DNA of 64,000 nucleotides. Source: Bacteriovoracaceae bacterium. GTDB lineage: Bacteria > Bdellovibrionota > Bacteriovoracia > Bacteriovoracales > Bacteriovoracaceae. The position numbers were made by a program, and so were the translations under genes. The notes beneath the pieces are model-generated. The model did no database searches. It had not been told where the DNA came from and saw nothing but the letters and a program-made list of their open reading frames with translations. Shown piece after piece: positions 7,013-43,597 of this stretch. Position 1 is the first letter of the stretch. Each line of letters begins with the position of its first letter. The stretch lies in the NCBI GenBank assembly GCA_016784965.1, contig JADHTQ010000001.1, positions 62,001-126,000 on the forward strand, written 5' to 3'.

Positions 7013-7888
7013 ATGCAAGAACTAAGCAAGCAAAACTACAATGAAATCATCGGTGCCATGAAAAATGAAATTAATGAATTTCACATTTATAACAAACTAG
7101 CAGCAAGCACAAAAGATCCACACAACAAAAAAATACTAACCAGCATCGCAAATGACGAGCTCAGTCACTTTGAGACCTTAAAAAAATATGTTCCGGTAAG
7201 AATTAAGCCGAGTCGATTCAAAATTTTATACTTCTACTTGATTGCCAAATTTTTTGGCTTAACTTTCGGTATCAAATTAATGGAGCGCGGCGAAGCCCAG
7301 GCAAAAATTAATTATGCTGAGCTGGCAAAAAGCTTTCCCGATGCAGAGCAAATTGCAAAGGATGAAACACAACATGAAAACCAACTAATTGAGCTGATCG
7401 ATGAGGAGAGGCTAAAGTATATCGGATCAATTGTGCTTGGTCTAAACGATGCGCTAGTGGAGCTAACCGGCGCTTTAGCGGGCTTTACCTTTGCTTTACA
7501 AAATTCAAAATTAATTGCCACGGTAGGTTTAATTACTGGAATTTCGGCCTCACTTGCTATGGGAGTATCTGAGTATTTGGCCACCAAACATGAAGAGGGT
7601 GACAAGCACCCCATTAAGGCGTCTTTTTATACTACTGCTGCCTATATTATGGTGGTGATTGTTTTAATTAGTCCTTACTTGATCTTAACAAATGTCTACA
7701 TGTCTTTGGGTATTACTCTACTTTTGGCGATAACAATTATTTTTAAATTTACTTACTATGTTTCAGTGGCCAAGGGAGCACCTCTTTGGAGTAGATTTTT
7801 TGAAATGTCATTAGTTAGCATTGGTGTTGCTTTGATTTCTTTTGGTATTGGCTATTTGGTTAGATTATTTTTTGGAGTTGATGTTTGA
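7013..7888 (+). CDS. MbfA-like iron exporter: ferritin-like domain fused to VIT1/CCC1 transporter
   Basis: The first about 130 residues form a rubrerythrin/ferritin-like four-helix domain with carboxylate/His pairs: E19/E22, DELSH (E49, H52), ERGE (E91, E94) and DETQH (E118, H121). Residues 135-291 are a VIT/CCC1 membrane domain, with LGLNDALVELTGALAG at its start and GVSEYLATK later, and about five helices. This architecture is that of MbfA, which exports iron (or manganese) from the cytoplasm under iron or peroxide stress in alphaproteobacteria. The gene stands alone and converges on the small ankyrin-type gene. A ferritin gene lies 10 kb away. Confidence 0.88.
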   Translation: MQELSKQNYNEIIGAMKNEINEFHIYNKLAASTKDPHNKKILTSIANDELSHFETLKKYVPVRIKPSRFKILYFYLIAKFFGLTFGIKLMERGEAQAKINYAELAKSFPDAEQIAKDETQHENQLIELIDEERLKYIGSIVLGLNDALVELTGALAGFTFALQNSKLIATVGLITGISASLAMGVSEYLATKHEEGDKHPIKASFYTTAAYIMVVIVLISPYLILTNVYMSLGITLLLAITIIFKFTYYVSVAKGAPLWSRFFEMSLVSIGVALISFGIGYLVRLFFGVDV

Positions 7889-7894
7889 TATAAA

Positions 7895-8188
7895 TTATTG
7901 ACCTAAGGCTTCACTGACTTTACTTATATTTGTTTGGGTTAAAGTTGCGCCAAACTTATATAAGATCTCTACCATTTCTGTGTTTTGATTAACCTCTGCT
8001 ACTACAATTGGAGTCTCACCAAATTGAGTTGAGTTATTAGGATTGCGTCCCTTTTTTAAAAAATGCTTAACTCCCTGAGTATTATTTTTCTTTAAGAAGT
8101 GTCCAAAAAGATCAACTACATTTTCATCTTGGATTTGTTGACTAGTTTTTTTACTGCTAAATAGACCGTTTATAAAATTTAAATTCAT
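7895..8188 (-). CDS. Small ankyrin-repeat-like protein
   Basis: The 97-aa product (MNLNFINGLFSSKK...) contains about one and a half ankyrin-like units: VKHFLKKGRNPNNSTQFGETPIVVA and a second helix pair MVEILYKFGATL. The frame is open for 34 further codons upstream, but the ATG at 8188 is preceded by AAAGGTGGGG at good spacing and the upstream residues are Cys-rich and atypical, so I start it here. A protein-interaction role is inferred from the fold. It lies downstream of kamC on the same strand with a 135-nt gap. Confidence 0.65.
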   Translation of the reverse strand: MNLNFINGLFSSKKTSQQIQDENVVDLFGHFLKKNNTQGVKHFLKKGRNPNNSTQFGETPIVVAEVNQNTEMVEILYKFGATLTQTNISKVSEALGQ

Positions 8189-8323
8189 GACTTCCCCACC
8201 TTTAAAAACATCGTTACTTACAACGCTTGACTCAGTGCAGTATACTCCGATTTGCAAGAATGTCAAGCAATCTTTAAGGAAAAAACACAATTGATGGGCC
8301 CTCTCTTAAAACTGAAAAGGATT

Positions 8324-9853
8324 CTATTTATTTTCTAAATATTTTTTAATTTCTTTTTTTATAGATTCTGGAATCGCAAAGCTTAATGCTAACTCCAGAG
8401 GTTTGTAGTTGTCTTTCAAAACTACTTCAAGGTTATCAGATGCAACTAACTCTGGAATGTAAGGCGTTGAATCTGAAGTTTTAAAGATAGCAGAATTTTT
8501 TTGAGAAATAATTTCTGGGTAATGAGTATTACAAAAAAAGATCACTTCAGGCTTTTTAGAAAACTCTTTGATAAATATTTTTGAAAGCTCAACTCCTGCT
8601 ACAGGATTAGTAGAATGAAAGAGTTCATCGATTAAAATATATGAGCTTGATGGGATTGCTTGCGTAAAAAAATTCAACTCATCGCCAAGGGAGGATAGGT
8701 TGGTCCTGATGTCTCCAGAGCTCATTAAGTGAAATCCTACATGTTTTGGAAATTTCAAATTTAATTTTTTAGCAGGCACAGGTAGGCCCATTTTAATCAA
8801 GGTAAGGTGAAAATAAAGCGTTTTAAGGATCGTTGTTTTGCCAGACATATTTGAGCCAAACAATATGTTTGATCCGCCTTTAAAACTTATTGTAAGTGGA
8901 GCATAGTGCTTTTTGGCCTTTTTCTTAAGCTGTGGAAGCTCGCCCTCACAAATCTTAAAATCCATAACGTTATCAAAAGATGGAATGACCAGTTTATTTT
9001 TTAGAAGACAAGTAACCAAAGCATAGTTGTAGGTCCGCTTTTTCCTTAAGTCATAATATTTTTTAAAATCAAGCAAATATTCATGAAGATGCTTGTTGCA
9101 CTCTGTGAGCTTTAGGTCAATTAGCTTATTAAACTCTGTTTGATAACCCTCAATCTTTTTTACAAGCTCCTCCATAGCCGCAGGTAGGTTATAGGTTACT
9201 AGGAAACAATCCAGATCTTCTTTCACCTGTAGCAGCTTACACGTTTTTATAGAAGGAAAAAGCGAGCTTTGTTTTGAGATCTCTTTGGGGTAAGGATAGA
9301 TCATCGAAAGAGTAGTTTGCTTATTTATTTCATTTTCTATCTTTTTAATTTCTTTTAACAAATCCTGCTCTAAGTTAGTTGTCACCTCTTGAATATTTGT
9401 CTCTTTTTGGGATAGAAGAAGTTTGTTAAAGTTAGCACCCATGTATTGCCCCAATACCGTTTGTATTTGAAGACAGGGGTTGTGCGCTTGAAAAAACTTT
9501 TTTTCTTCTGCTTGAATTTCCAAGTCTATCTTAATAAATTGGGCAAGCGTATAAAGGTGCACTTGGTCTAATGATTGATTGTTATAAGCTGTGCACACTT
9601 CATCTAAGCTGTTCAATCTAGAACTTAAATTGATAATGTTTTCTAACGAGTGCAAGTTGTCTTTAAACTGCTTCCGAAGTTTTGTTAGCTCACTAAAGTG
9701 AGACTCACCCTGCGTGCAGCTTAGGGGTTTCAATATAACTTTAGAGATAATCGGTAGAGGAATATCAAAGTTTGCTAAAAACTCTTCAAACCCCAACTCA
9801 TCAAAAAGATGCGTGGGTATAATGTTTTGCTCAAATTCTAATTTCACGTACAT
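8324..9853 (-). CDS. kamC: KamC-like MutS-family ATPase, lysine 5,6-aminomutase reactivase subunit
   Basis: The 509-aa protein ends in a MutS-type ABC ATPase: Walker A GSNMSGKTT, the ELNFF/LSSLGDE region, Walker B SYILIDELFHSTNP and a switch His in FFCNTH. It lacks the MutS mismatch-recognition and connector domains, and it is not a mismatch-repair protein by context. It follows kdd and a P-loop protein, the arrangement of lysine-fermentation clusters, where KamB and KamC reactivate the adenosylcobalamin-dependent lysine 5,6-aminomutase. It overlaps kamB by 23 nt. A GTG two codons in has better spacing to GAGAGG and could be the real start. Confidence 0.8.
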   Translation of the reverse strand: MYVKLEFEQNIIPTHLFDELGFEEFLANFDIPLPIISKVILKPLSCTQGESHFSELTKLRKQFKDNLHSLENIINLSSRLNSLDEVCTAYNNQSLDQVHLYTLAQFIKIDLEIQAEEKKFFQAHNPCLQIQTVLGQYMGANFNKLLLSQKETNIQEVTTNLEQDLLKEIKKIENEINKQTTLSMIYPYPKEISKQSSLFPSIKTCKLLQVKEDLDCFLVTYNLPAAMEELVKKIEGYQTEFNKLIDLKLTECNKHLHEYLLDFKKYYDLRKKRTYNYALVTCLLKNKLVIPSFDNVMDFKICEGELPQLKKKAKKHYAPLTISFKGGSNILFGSNMSGKTTILKTLYFHLTLIKMGLPVPAKKLNLKFPKHVGFHLMSSGDIRTNLSSLGDELNFFTQAIPSSSYILIDELFHSTNPVAGVELSKIFIKEFSKKPEVIFFCNTHYPEIISQKNSAIFKTSDSTPYIPELVASDNLEVVLKDNYKPLELALSFAIPESIKKEIKKYLENK

Positions 9854-10793
9854 CCTCTCGATAAAGATTATAAGTTTTAATTGGTAGTGGGATTTTAAAA
9901 GAAGCGGATGAGTTTACTTGCTTAATAAATAGGGCCCGTGCCTTCACCGGATTAAGTAGACTTAGATTGTTTAAAGGTTGCCCCACAGATGATTGGGTTT
10001 GTGCTAATTGGTATAAGGTAAAGTTGTCCAATACAATATTAACGTTGTTTTTTTGCTTTAATAAGTAATCTACAGACTTAGAAAAAGCGGCATTTAAATA
10101 TAATGTATGGGGTTTGCTTTGTTTATTGATCAGGTCTTTTAAATGATCGTCTAAAAATGGAATTTTTAGACTATGGTAGATGATTTTGTTACTGCTACTT
10201 ATGATCATGGATTTTGTAAAATCATTTTTGTGATTTTCAATAACATTTTTTATTTTATTTTCAGTTGTGGGTAAGCTCAGGGAATATATCATGCTTTGAG
10301 CTTTGTTTAGCTGCTGTTGACGCTCACTAATTAGAAGCGAAAAATAAAACTGATCACTAACGATAGGATCTGCCAAAAACTGCCGATCAATTGATCCATC
10401 GATTAGAAGTGTGCCCCTTGGGATGATTTTTTTTAGCGATTGCTTAATGGCAATAAGTTCTTTTTTAGTATTTGGGCCTTCTAATACTGGTCTGATATCT
10501 ACAAGTGCCCTGGCGGATACATATGTTGAAAAAGTATCTAATATCTCATACCTTCCACTTAAGTCCTTTAATTGGTGAACTGAGGTGACAAAGCTATCAC
10601 CTTTTTTGATGGTTATGATGGGTTTTTGGTGCCCCTCAAGACTATCAACCTTTTCTGAATTGATTCCAATGGAAGTAATAATCACCGGAGCCGACGAATG
10701 TTGTTTGATCTGATTATAGACAAAACTTAAGACAGTCGTTTTGCCTGCATTTTTATCGGAGCCAATAAAGGATGTGGTAACAAAGTTGTCCAC
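9831..10793 (-). CDS. kamB: KamB-like P-loop protein, lysine 5,6-aminomutase reactivase subunit
   Basis: The 320-aa protein has a Walker A motif near the N-terminus (GSDKNAGKTT), the only recognisable nucleotide-binding signature. The position between kdd and the MutS-like ATPase matches the KamB position in lysine-fermentation clusters, so I assign it as the partner of KamC in reactivating lysine 5,6-aminomutase. The start is GTG 16 nt after the kdd stop with only a weak AAGAAG upstream. The assignment depends more on neighbours than on sequence. It overlaps kamC, indicating coupling. Confidence 0.72.
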   Translation of the reverse strand: MDNFVTTSFIGSDKNAGKTTVLSFVYNQIKQHSSAPVIITSIGINSEKVDSLEGHQKPIITIKKGDSFVTSVHQLKDLSGRYEILDTFSTYVSARALVDIRPVLEGPNTKKELIAIKQSLKKIIPRGTLLIDGSIDRQFLADPIVSDQFYFSLLISERQQQLNKAQSMIYSLSLPTTENKIKNVIENHKNDFTKSMIISSSNKIIYHSLKIPFLDDHLKDLINKQSKPHTLYLNAAFSKSVDYLLKQKNNVNIVLDNFTLYQLAQTQSSVGQPLNNLSLLNPVKARALFIKQVNSSASFKIPLPIKTYNLYREDVREIRI

Positions 10794-10809
10794 AACTTAA
10801 CTTCTTTTT

Positions 10810-11853
10810 TTAAGTATACTGTTTTTTGAATAGTTGTCTTAATTTGGTATGTTTTCTGACCACATCAAGAGCGATCTGATCGTGGTTGGGAGCAAAACCA
10901 TTCCCCACAATTAGTAGGGCGTCAGACCCGATACCTTCTGCACCAAGTGCGGCTTTAGTGAAGCTTGTGGCCATGGTAAAAAAGTAAACAGTACTCTCTC
11001 TTTGCTTAGCACACATTATTGAAGACATTTCAGTATCAGCAACTGGTGCACAGTTAATTACCAAGTCGGCCATTTTCCCATCTGTAACTTCCGAAACTGC
11101 TCTCTCACACTCTACAGGTGATTGAGCATTTACTTTTAAAACTTCGTCACAGTATCCAAGTTCTTCAATTCTTTGACAACCTCTATCAGAGGGCTGAATT
11201 GCTATTAATTTTCCGGTGTCTTTTAAAATATCTCTGGCAACTGCACAACAGATGCTTCCTGACTTTCCACCAGCACCTATAATAACCACAGTTTGGCCTG
11301 GTTTTACCAAATTAAAAGTTTGTGCTGGAGCTCCTGCAACATCTAGGACCGCTAGAGCAAGGGTTTCGTTGAAGTCGTCTGGAATCTTTCCCAATACTCC
11401 ACTTTCAAACAAAATGGCATGTCCTTTTATTTTTACTTGATCTCGCTCGGGGAAAATTTCTACAATTTCATCAATATGTAGTGGGGTAAGAGAAAGGGAT
11501 ACAAGGCTTGCAATTTTATCTCCAACATTTAACTGTTTGCTATTTGGGTAGCTTTTGCCAATCTCTTTAACTCTTCCAAGAAGCATCCCTCCCGATCCAG
11601 TTACGGGGTTTTGCTGTTTTCCCCTCTCGGCTACAATACCTAAGATCATTTTTTTTACAGATTCTAGGTCACCTTGACAGGCATCTTTCATCTGACGAAA
11701 AGATGCTGAGTCAACATTTAAAGTATCCACATCAATCAAGATTTCATTGTCAAAAATTGGTAGAGAATTATCTACTTTTTGAGCATTCTGAGGAAGTGCG
11801 TTGGGGGGAGAAATTACACGATGTGTTCCATATTTACAAGCAGCTGCTCTCAT
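10810..11853 (-). CDS. kdd: L-erythro-3,5-diaminohexanoate dehydrogenase
   Basis: The 347-aa protein opens with CKYGTHRVI and has NEILIDVDTLNVDSASF and NPVTGSGGMLLGRV, segments I recognise from Kdd of lysine-fermenting bacteria. Kdd oxidises 3,5-diaminohexanoate to 5-amino-3-oxohexanoate with NAD+ in the anaerobic lysine pathway. A medium-chain-dehydrogenase-like Rossmann region (VVIIGAGGKSGS) lies near residue 195. AGGT precedes the ATG. It is the first gene of the kdd-kamB-kamC operon. The rest of the pathway (kamA, kamD, kamE, kce, kal) is not in this window. Confidence 0.9.
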   Translation of the reverse strand: MRAAACKYGTHRVISPPNALPQNAQKVDNSLPIFDNEILIDVDTLNVDSASFRQMKDACQGDLESVKKMILGIVAERGKQQNPVTGSGGMLLGRVKEIGKSYPNSKQLNVGDKIASLVSLSLTPLHIDEIVEIFPERDQVKIKGHAILFESGVLGKIPDDFNETLALAVLDVAGAPAQTFNLVKPGQTVVIIGAGGKSGSICCAVARDILKDTGKLIAIQPSDRGCQRIEELGYCDEVLKVNAQSPVECERAVSEVTDGKMADLVINCAPVADTEMSSIMCAKQRESTVYFFTMATSFTKAALGAEGIGSDALLIVGNGFAPNHDQIALDVVRKHTKLRQLFKKQYT

Positions 11854-11972: not shown

Positions 11973-11981
11973 TGCTATAAT
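11973..11981 (+). promoter_or_regulatory. Extended -10 promoter of the lone response regulator
   Basis: TGCTATAAT (11973-11981) is a good extended -10 element. It sits 23 nt upstream of the ATG at 12005, followed by AGGAGGG as the ribosome site. The -35 region is poor, as is usual for extended -10 promoters. The 150-nt gap also holds the divergent kdd promoter, which I could not pin down. Confidence 0.45.
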
Positions 11982-12004
11982 TGCTTTATAGGAGGGCAAA
12001 CGCT

Positions 12005-12421
12005 ATGAAAGATAATTGCACTGTTTTATTAGTAGAAGATGATCCAATTGATCAGATGAACATAAAGCAAGCATTTACCGAAATCGGTGTTTTAACCCCC
12101 TTGGTCATTGCAGGGGATGGCATAGAGGGACTAGAAATACTTCGCAATCCGGATAACTTGCTGCCAAACCTTATATTACTAGATTTAAAGATGCCCAAAA
12201 TGGACGGTTTTGAATTTTTATTTGAAATTAAAAATGATGATTTACTGAGGGGTATTCCTGTCGTCATTTTAACCCACGTAAGCAATCCAGAGTATGTTAA
12301 AAAGTGTTATGAGTTGGGCGCATCTGGGTACATTGTCAAAAGCCCCCAATATCTTGAGCTTTTAAAAATCATCGATCGACTAGATGACTACTGGAGCCTT
12401 AGCGTGCTGCCGGATTTTTAA
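12005..12421 (+). CDS. Single-domain response regulator (receiver only)
   Basis: The 138-aa protein is a complete CheY-like receiver without output domain: acidic pocket E11-D12-D13, phospho-acceptor D60 in LLDLKMPKMDG, a Thr in ILTHVS and a Lys in IVKSP. The subtype with an extended loop after helix 2 resembles Rcp1-type regulators that pair with phytochrome-like or hybrid kinases. The frame opens at a TTG 24 nt earlier, but ATG 12005 has AGGAGGG at good spacing. Its 3' end overlaps the convergent radical SAM gene by 23 nt. The partner kinase is unknown; the hybrid kinase at 14280 is a nearby candidate. Confidence 0.88.
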   Translation: MKDNCTVLLVEDDPIDQMNIKQAFTEIGVLTPLVIAGDGIEGLEILRNPDNLLPNLILLDLKMPKMDGFEFLFEIKNDDLLRGIPVVILTHVSNPEYVKKCYELGASGYIVKSPQYLELLKIIDRLDDYWSLSVLPDF

Positions 12422-43012: not shown

Positions 43013-43597
43013 TTACTTTCTTGGGCAATAAGTAGCTTCCTCTTCCCCCTGCACTTGATTAGTAAAACGAGCAAAAACAAAAAAATAATCAGAAAGTCTG
43101 TTAATAAACTGAAGCATAAAACTAGAAATTTCTTCGGGGTTATTTTTATGAAATGTGATTAACTTTCTTTCGATTTTTCTGGTGTGGGTTCTACATAAAT
43201 GCAAAAAAGAAGCAGCTAAGCTGCCCCCGGGTAAAATAAAATTATTCAGGGCAGGTAAATTTGCATCAAGTTCATCAATTGTTTTTTCTAGGTTATTTAA
43301 AAACTTTGGTTCAAGTGGAGGAAGCGATAATTTACTTTTTTTATCTTGCTCACAAGAAATATGACTTCCAAGTTTAAAAAGCATCGATTGAATCAAAACC
43401 ATCACCTCAATGCTATCTTTAAACAAATCATTATTTTTTCGAAGAAGTGATACAACTGCTCCTATTCTTGAATTGAGTTCATCAATTTCTCCGTATATCT
43501 CTATTCGTTGATTGTCTTTTAATGTCCTTGTTCCACTGGCCAAAGAAGTTTCACCAAGGTCTCCCGATTTAGTGTAGATGGATGATTTACTGGCCAC
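43013..43597 (-). CDS. PduO-type ATP:cob(I)alamin adenosyltransferase
   Basis: The 194-aa protein begins with IYTKSGDLGETSLASGTRT and YGEIDELNSRIGA, the PduO-family N-terminus, and has the helical bundle and FILPGGSLAASFLHLCRT loop that binds ATP and cobalamin. It makes adenosylcobalamin, the cofactor needed by the methylmalonyl-CoA mutase and the lysine aminomutase served by kamBC. It overlaps lgt by 1 nt and is the last gene of the operon that contains the two-component system. Confidence 0.93.
   Translation of the reverse strand: MASKSSIYTKSGDLGETSLASGTRTLKDNQRIEIYGEIDELNSRIGAVVSLLRKNNDLFKDSIEVMVLIQSMLFKLGSHISCEQDKKSKLSLPPLEPKFLNNLEKTIDELDANLPALNNFILPGGSLAASFLHLCRTHTRKIERKLITFHKNNPEEISSFMLQFINRLSDYFFVFARFTNQVQGEEEATYCPRK

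Follow-up and report, generated by a model that had tools for sequence, protein, structure and literature searches.

A kdd–kamB–kamC gene set of probable Kat-variant lysine degradation, separated from its partner genes in a Bacteriovoracaceae genome

In the lysine fermentation variant treated by Perret et al. 2011 (PMC3149608), Kat stands in for Kal; the variant is represented there by Candidatus Cloacamonas acidaminovorans and a Bacteroidetes contig. The same paper describes steps common with the classical clostridial/fusobacterial fermentation, which uses Kal, up to 3-aminobutyryl-coenzyme A (CoA). Here, we describe three genes of this kind, kdd, a kamB-like gene and a kamC-like gene, which lie at positions 8324–11853 of a 64,000-nucleotide stretch (the window; C49:62001–126000, within a contig of 200,671 bases) from a Bacteriovoracaceae bacterium (GCA_016784965.1; 4.59 Mb in 126 contigs, estimated 97.47% complete with 3.78% contamination). 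We consider it highly probable that they form one likely transcription unit of Kat-variant lysine degradation, the genes of which are dispersed among three or more sites of the genome. In the proposed scheme, KamA would convert L-lysine to β-lysine, KamDE (with adenosylcobalamin and pyridoxal 5′-phosphate) would convert β-lysine to 3,5-diaminohexanoate, and Kdd would oxidise the latter to 3-keto-5-aminohexanoate, while KamB and KamC, both ATPases, would presumably rid KamDE of damaged cobalamin. These enzyme activities, the flux through them and the reactivase role are what we infer from the genes; the content, order, co-occurrence and separation of the genes are direct observations.

As the preliminary description of the window had stated, genes of the kdd, kamB and kamC types are present as minus-strand open frames (Table 1), with 16 nucleotides between the kdd and kamB-like frames and a 23-nucleotide overlap between the kamB- and kamC-like frames. 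Kdd, called with NCBIfam NF052381 (cut-off 200 bits), lies over the cut-off, gives 349.7 bits with the 3,5-diaminohexanoate dehydrogenase PDB 7dl3, and is 74–80% identical to its nine family orthologues. KamB and KamC diverge fast, with mean pairwise identities in the family of 38.5% and 32.3% (Kdd, 76.6%; the five enzymes, 65–77%), yet their nucleotide-site residues are kept: G11, K14, G17, K18 and T19 of the KamB-like protein are invariant across 35 sequences, as are the Walker A (G333/N335/G338/K339) and Walker B (D409/E410) residues of the KamC-like protein across 33. The locus thus encodes two ATPases with intact nucleotide sites, which are co-encoded and co-occur with kamDE. Promoter-like sites were near the shuffled expectation at both loci (16 versus 14.4 and 12 versus 12.3), as were terminator-like sites (3 versus 3.4 and 3 versus 4.0).

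The predicted structure of the KamC-like protein (predicted local distance difference test, pLDDT, 92.1) has a MutS/MutS2 core (best Foldseek E 4.6e-19; template modelling score 0.67/0.69 to Thermotoga MutS2 9kce_D); the protein is shorter than MutS and is encoded with KamB. For the KamB-like model (pLDDT 89.1), Foldseek gave no match with E ≤0.001; the best Z score, 12.2, was to Ffh (160 residues aligned, 3.3 Å), and MeaB, a chaperone of a B12 mutase, was among the weak Foldseek rows (E 0.068). As modelled, the KamB-like protein resembles SIMIBI P-loop nucleoside triphosphatases (NTPases), such as Ffh, MinD/ParA and MeaB, sharing their SIMIBI-type fold. Sequence identity in both sets of comparisons is low (7–17% in the rows shown), and a shared fold shows no function. 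The reactivase role of KamB/KamC is presumed from NCBIfam's name for these proteins; no paper on it was found in the open-licence literature, which is a weak negative given that scope.

The preliminary description had also noted that kamD, kamE, kamA, kce and kal are absent from the flanks, and had expected the rest of the pathway elsewhere in the genome. The first point is borne out: the kamD, kamA and kal models have no match anywhere in the window, and a reading of the flanking frames shows neither kamE nor kce there, no genome-wide model search having been made for these two. The second holds for four of the five genes. Contig C14 carries kamD, kamE, a HemL-like (kat-like) aminotransferase gene and kce, in that order on one strand. 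KamD scores 766.1 bits with NF052384 (cut-off 600) and 601 bits with PDB 8t0v; KamE scores 350.9 bits with NF052385 (cut-off 280) and 282 bits with PDB 9q1a, an alignment that retains the DxHxxG...K stretch, which has cofactor roles, of the solved aminomutase; Kce scores 391.7 bits with NF052387 (cut-off 382) and 269 bits with PDB 2y7d. C20 carries a single kamA gene, with rimM- and trmD-like genes downstream (both named from their reading frames); the KamA product is over the cut-off of TIGR00238 and gives 418.9 bits with PDB 2a5h. A CoA-transferase pair on C41, over the cut-offs of the subfamily models TIGR02429 and TIGR02428, is a candidate acetoacetate CoA transferase. The fifth gene, kal, was not detected, its model having no match in this nearly complete genome, and the kat-like gene is found instead. 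The heme-copper oxidase (COX1) model, which has matches in 8 of the 14 genomes used as controls, likewise finds nothing here; this negative, obtained without a search for cytochrome bd, fits an anaerobic lifestyle.

The distribution of the genes was surveyed in 192 genomes, including this one (G000) and the other members of its family (115 genomes, G000–G114). Both kdd and kamD were found in 31 genomes each (30 of the kdd matches over the cut-off); 30 genomes have both, two have one only (kamD in G174, kdd in G180) and 160 have neither, giving a Fisher p of 9e-33 for co-occurrence in a test that ignores relatedness. The pathway is a minority trait in this phylum, not a rarity, and at this frequency lysine fermentation is less unusual in a Bdellovibrionota-like bacterium than had been expected. 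KamB was called with NF052386 (cut-off 210 bits), a discriminating model with matches in 11 of the 192 relatives and in none of the 14 genomes that served as controls for the profile models. Calling KamC by its family model, NF052383 (cut-off 300 bits), was tried and rejected, as it gives MutS-sized proteins of relatives as much as 211.9 bits, above the score of the window protein; a 901-amino-acid frame elsewhere in this genome scores 187.1 bits. The distribution of KamC was therefore taken from BLAST with the window protein, which gave at least 182 bits in ten pathway genomes and at most 47.5 bits among the other matches listed. These ten are the same family members that have both kdd and kamD; the KamB matches fall in these ten and G115, and in no other of the 192.

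Several observations weigh against assigning the three genes to lysine degradation through Kat. The KamB-like protein scores 109.5 bits and the KamC-like protein 132.1 bits with their models, both below the cut-offs, and NF052383 also scores MutS-sized proteins highly; because the cut-offs are missed, the proteins are named KamB-like and KamC-like and are not treated as equivalogs, and because the KamC model does not discriminate, that call rests on synteny, size and fold. The best model of KamA, TIGR03820 (lysine 2,3-aminomutase), gives 524.1 bits, 1.3 below its cut-off of 525.4, and a kamA match of this 500-bit class occurs in six of the ten family pathway genomes, being missing from G011, G019, G025 and G062. 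The best NCBIfam and PDB matches of the kat-like protein are glutamate-1-semialdehyde aminomutases, and it is a putative Kat by context and by similarity to a gene of the G115 cluster (61% identical), not by comparison with an assayed enzyme.

These points bear on two alternatives. The kdd, kamB-like and kamC-like genes might serve another substrate or task, independent of lysine, as the missed cut-offs and the fast evolution of KamB and KamC relative to Kdd could suggest; but KamA, KamD, KamE and Kce are present in the genome, every Kdd-bearing member of the family also has KamD, KamB and a KamC match, and the remaining 105 members have no match to Kdd, KamD or KamB and none to KamC above 47.5 bits, so that we regard this as very improbable. 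It is also conceivable that the HemL-like gene is not Kat, and that some other lyase carries out the last deamination, giving crotonyl-CoA and butyrate as in clostridia. The best model and structure matches point that way, as does the case, described in PMC3149608, of a bacterium that lacks the lysine genes and has a protein 60% identical to Kat; however, the score with the hemL model is far below its cut-off (277.6 of 527.3 bits), the gene accompanies kamE and/or kce in all nine family members with a readable region, and the genome has no Kal match. We judge this second alternative unlikely, and Kat-variant lysine degradation is the reading used below.

Some further features of the relatives may be recorded here. 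G019, G025 and G062 have a longer kamA-like gene, divergent beside kdd (L073:6673–8130, L075:5149–6468 and L079:6032–7348) and 31–34% identical to the kamA of this genome; this paralogue may serve as the lysine 2,3-aminomutase in these genomes. Outside the family, 20 genomes have both kdd and kamD; the two genes are neighbours in nine and lie on separate contigs in 11, which contig ends explain for G115. The locus of G115 (L088), a member of the same phylum, has the different order kamB–kamA–kdd–kce–CoA transferase-like pair–kat–thiolase-like–kamE, with unlabelled genes named from their reading frames, and is either a separate acquisition or contamination. In G158 (C163:1014–1533), kdd is matched by two pieces that differ in frame, one with an internal stop, which points to either a decayed gene or a sequencing error. 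In two relatives without KamB, a Glu/Leu/Phe/Val dehydrogenase-type gene adjoins kdd (L083:5812–6855 and L086:9559–10611, the latter named by 49% identity to the former); it is a possible partner for amino-group recycling.

The usual gene order in the family indicates how the separation probably arose. In eight of the ten family pathway genomes kamC is beside kamD, and in five (G017, G025, G029, G041 and G062) the seven genes kdd–kamB–kamC–kamD–kamE–kat–kce follow without a large gap. In G011, 5.7 kb separate kdd from kamB; in G022, a contig end cuts kamD; and in G039, kamD and kamE are 2.9 kb apart, with no kce seen in the stretches covered. Only G000 and G019 are broken between kamC and kamD. 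In G019 the two genes are approximately 75 kb apart on one contig, the kamC side ending 0.3 kb before the contig end, and foreign neighbours are visible on the kamD side only. With the kamC–kamD junction intact in eight of the ten genomes, the arrangement in G000 most likely reflects a secondary break, an ancestral cluster of the seven genes having presumably broken between kamC and kamD; it is from this distribution that we infer that the cluster came before the break. An artefact of assembly or binning, in which the organism itself has an unbroken cluster or either C14 or C49 derives from another strain, would be compatible with the number of contigs, the estimated contamination and the intact junction in eight of the ten genomes. 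We nonetheless consider it improbable: neither break in G000 is at a contig end, with kamC inside C49 and 4.3 kb of other sequence upstream of kamD on C14; kamD, kdd, kamB and kamA have one match each in the genome; and the separation has its counterpart on a single contig in G019.

Whether the two genomes share one break was approached with trees. The KamD tree, which left out G174 and those named loci (a set chosen by their kdd) with a kamD frame of at most 450 amino acids, places G019 with the contiguous G025 and G062 (99/88) and G000 elsewhere (92/70), with a program warning that G000, G039 and G041 are long branches of unsure placement. A five-gene tree, for which G022 has only two genes and G039 four, recovers the G019/G025/G062 group at 100 and places G000 weakly (28–36). 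Since G019 and G000 fall in different KamD subclades, two separate breaks at the kamC–kamD junction are more likely than one, and a single shared split is not favoured; a shared split followed by re-joining is conceivable. Dating the break by common flanking genes was rejected, as the flanks share little among the family genomes, most of which seem to carry the cluster at a different position. One flanking gene is common to G000 and G011 (68% identical) and one to G019 and G025 (45%).

Comparison with relatives that have kamD and no KamB (20 genomes) reveals a candidate second reactivation system. In 19 of these, a MoxR-type AAA+ ATPase gene lies directly after kamE, and in 18 a VWA-type protein is encoded next (Table 1); the contig of G165 ends after the MoxR gene, and that of G174 ends inside kamD. 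The MoxR-type proteins match PF07728 in all three scanned and CbbQ_C in one of the three, and the next protein is VWA-type in all five scanned. All 19 MoxR-type proteins have an intact Walker A motif, and 17 of the 18 VWA-type proteins an intact DxSxS motif, the remaining one being a short frame. No MoxR gene follows kamE in the ten judgeable KamB genomes (of 11; the contig of G022 ends first). The layout is comparable to CbbQ–CbbO and NorQ–NorD. We tentatively suggest, finding it nearly as easy to credit as to doubt, that this phylum has two unrelated machines for reactivating lysine 5,6-aminomutase, KamB/KamC in the lineage of the window and MoxR–VWA in the other lineages; if so, a B12 enzyme would have MoxR–VWA as its AAA+ activase. 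That the pair replaces KamB/KamC is a hypothesis, which is weakened by the many roles of MoxR–VWA pairs. No NCBIfam model over its cut-off names the MoxR/VWA proteins, and no paper linking MoxR with lysine 5,6-aminomutase was found in the open-licence literature, again a weak negative. The KamD sequences form two clades, one of 19 rows (100/99; MoxR-type) and one of the ten family rows (100/100), and because there are only two, the number of independent events behind the pattern may be very small. Among 80 named loci with a window-type kdd, no MoxR or VWA relative was found beside kamE, with one weak match elsewhere; BLAST may miss diverged copies here, many stretches are short, and loci chosen by kdd leave the second clade unsampled beyond this phylum. 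As 18 of the 80 have kamD with no KamB or KamC match in the stretch examined, a missing KamB/KamC neighbour alone proves little. The proposed activity is testable with purified proteins.

The preliminary description had named two flanking genes. The ankyrin-type match at 7895–8290 is present, but at 23.8 bits it is below the Pfam cut-off of 27.3; the frame at 11981–12421, named a response regulator, reads as a receiver domain from its translation. The KamC-like protein itself exceeds the cut-off of PF00488 (43.8 versus 30.2 bits). At 7013–7888, a rubrerythrin-like N-terminal part is joined to a VIT1-type part (PF02915 and PF01988, both over cut-off), an arrangement that recalls the iron exporter MbfA, but the MbfA model gives only 17.2 bits. 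Lysine 5,6-aminomutase needs adenosylcobalamin, and an unlinked cobalamin adenosyltransferase gene in the window, the genome's only match to its model, adjoins lgt- and lspA-type genes; it likely makes the adenosylcobalamin needed by KamDE.

Table 1. Coordinates of the genes and regions discussed (window positions unless a locus is given)
Feature	Coordinates	Strand	Model score or position
kdd, L-erythro-3,5-diaminohexanoate dehydrogenase, 347 amino acids	10810..11853	minus	NF052381, 253.9 bits (cut-off 200)
kamB-like gene, P-loop NTPase of SIMIBI-type predicted fold, presumed reactivase subunit, 320 amino acids	9831..10793	minus	
kamC-like gene, MutS-fold ATPase, presumed reactivase ATPase, 509 amino acids	8324..9853	minus	
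kat-like gene, HemL-like class III aminotransferase	L002:8672-9916		between kamE and kce
Cobalamin adenosyltransferase (supporting gene, unlinked)	43013..43597	minus	PF01923, 171.6 bits
MoxR-VWA regions	L080:4764-6649, L081:5093-6945, L082:3989-5745		
MoxR-VWA regions	L084:9462-11263, L086:4399-6158, L087:5406-7282		
MoxR-VWA regions	L180-L193 except L191		

The locus would place B12-dependent lysine degradation in a group best known for predators and, together with the missing heme-copper oxidase match, suggests an oxygen-free life on amino acids for some of these bacteria. The case also illustrates that missing cluster neighbours need not mean a missing pathway, and the comparison with relatives brings out a second candidate system for reactivating a B12 enzyme. 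No report of lysine degradation in this phylum was found in the open-licence literature, a weak negative given that scope.

The pathway is of a known kind; within the reach of limited searches of that literature, the novelty lies in the host, the gene order and the break. The closest counterpart is the Kat variant, which, according to PMC3149608, has the same kamA, kamD, kamE, kdd and kce, a HemL-like kat in place of kal, and a CoA transferase; the legend of figure 2 in that source also marks cluster interruptions of more than 5.5 kb. The present system differs in its Bdellovibrionota-type host, in the usual family order kdd–kamB–kamC–kamD–kamE–kat–kce, and in a cluster that is broken between kamC and kamD, with the kamA and CoA-transferase genes at unlinked sites. 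KamB-/KamC-like genes likewise lie beside kdd–kamA–kamD–kamE in Clostridium loci, L111 and L123 among them; in contrast to the classical route through Kal, the genome described here has no detected Kal and carries a kat-like gene instead.

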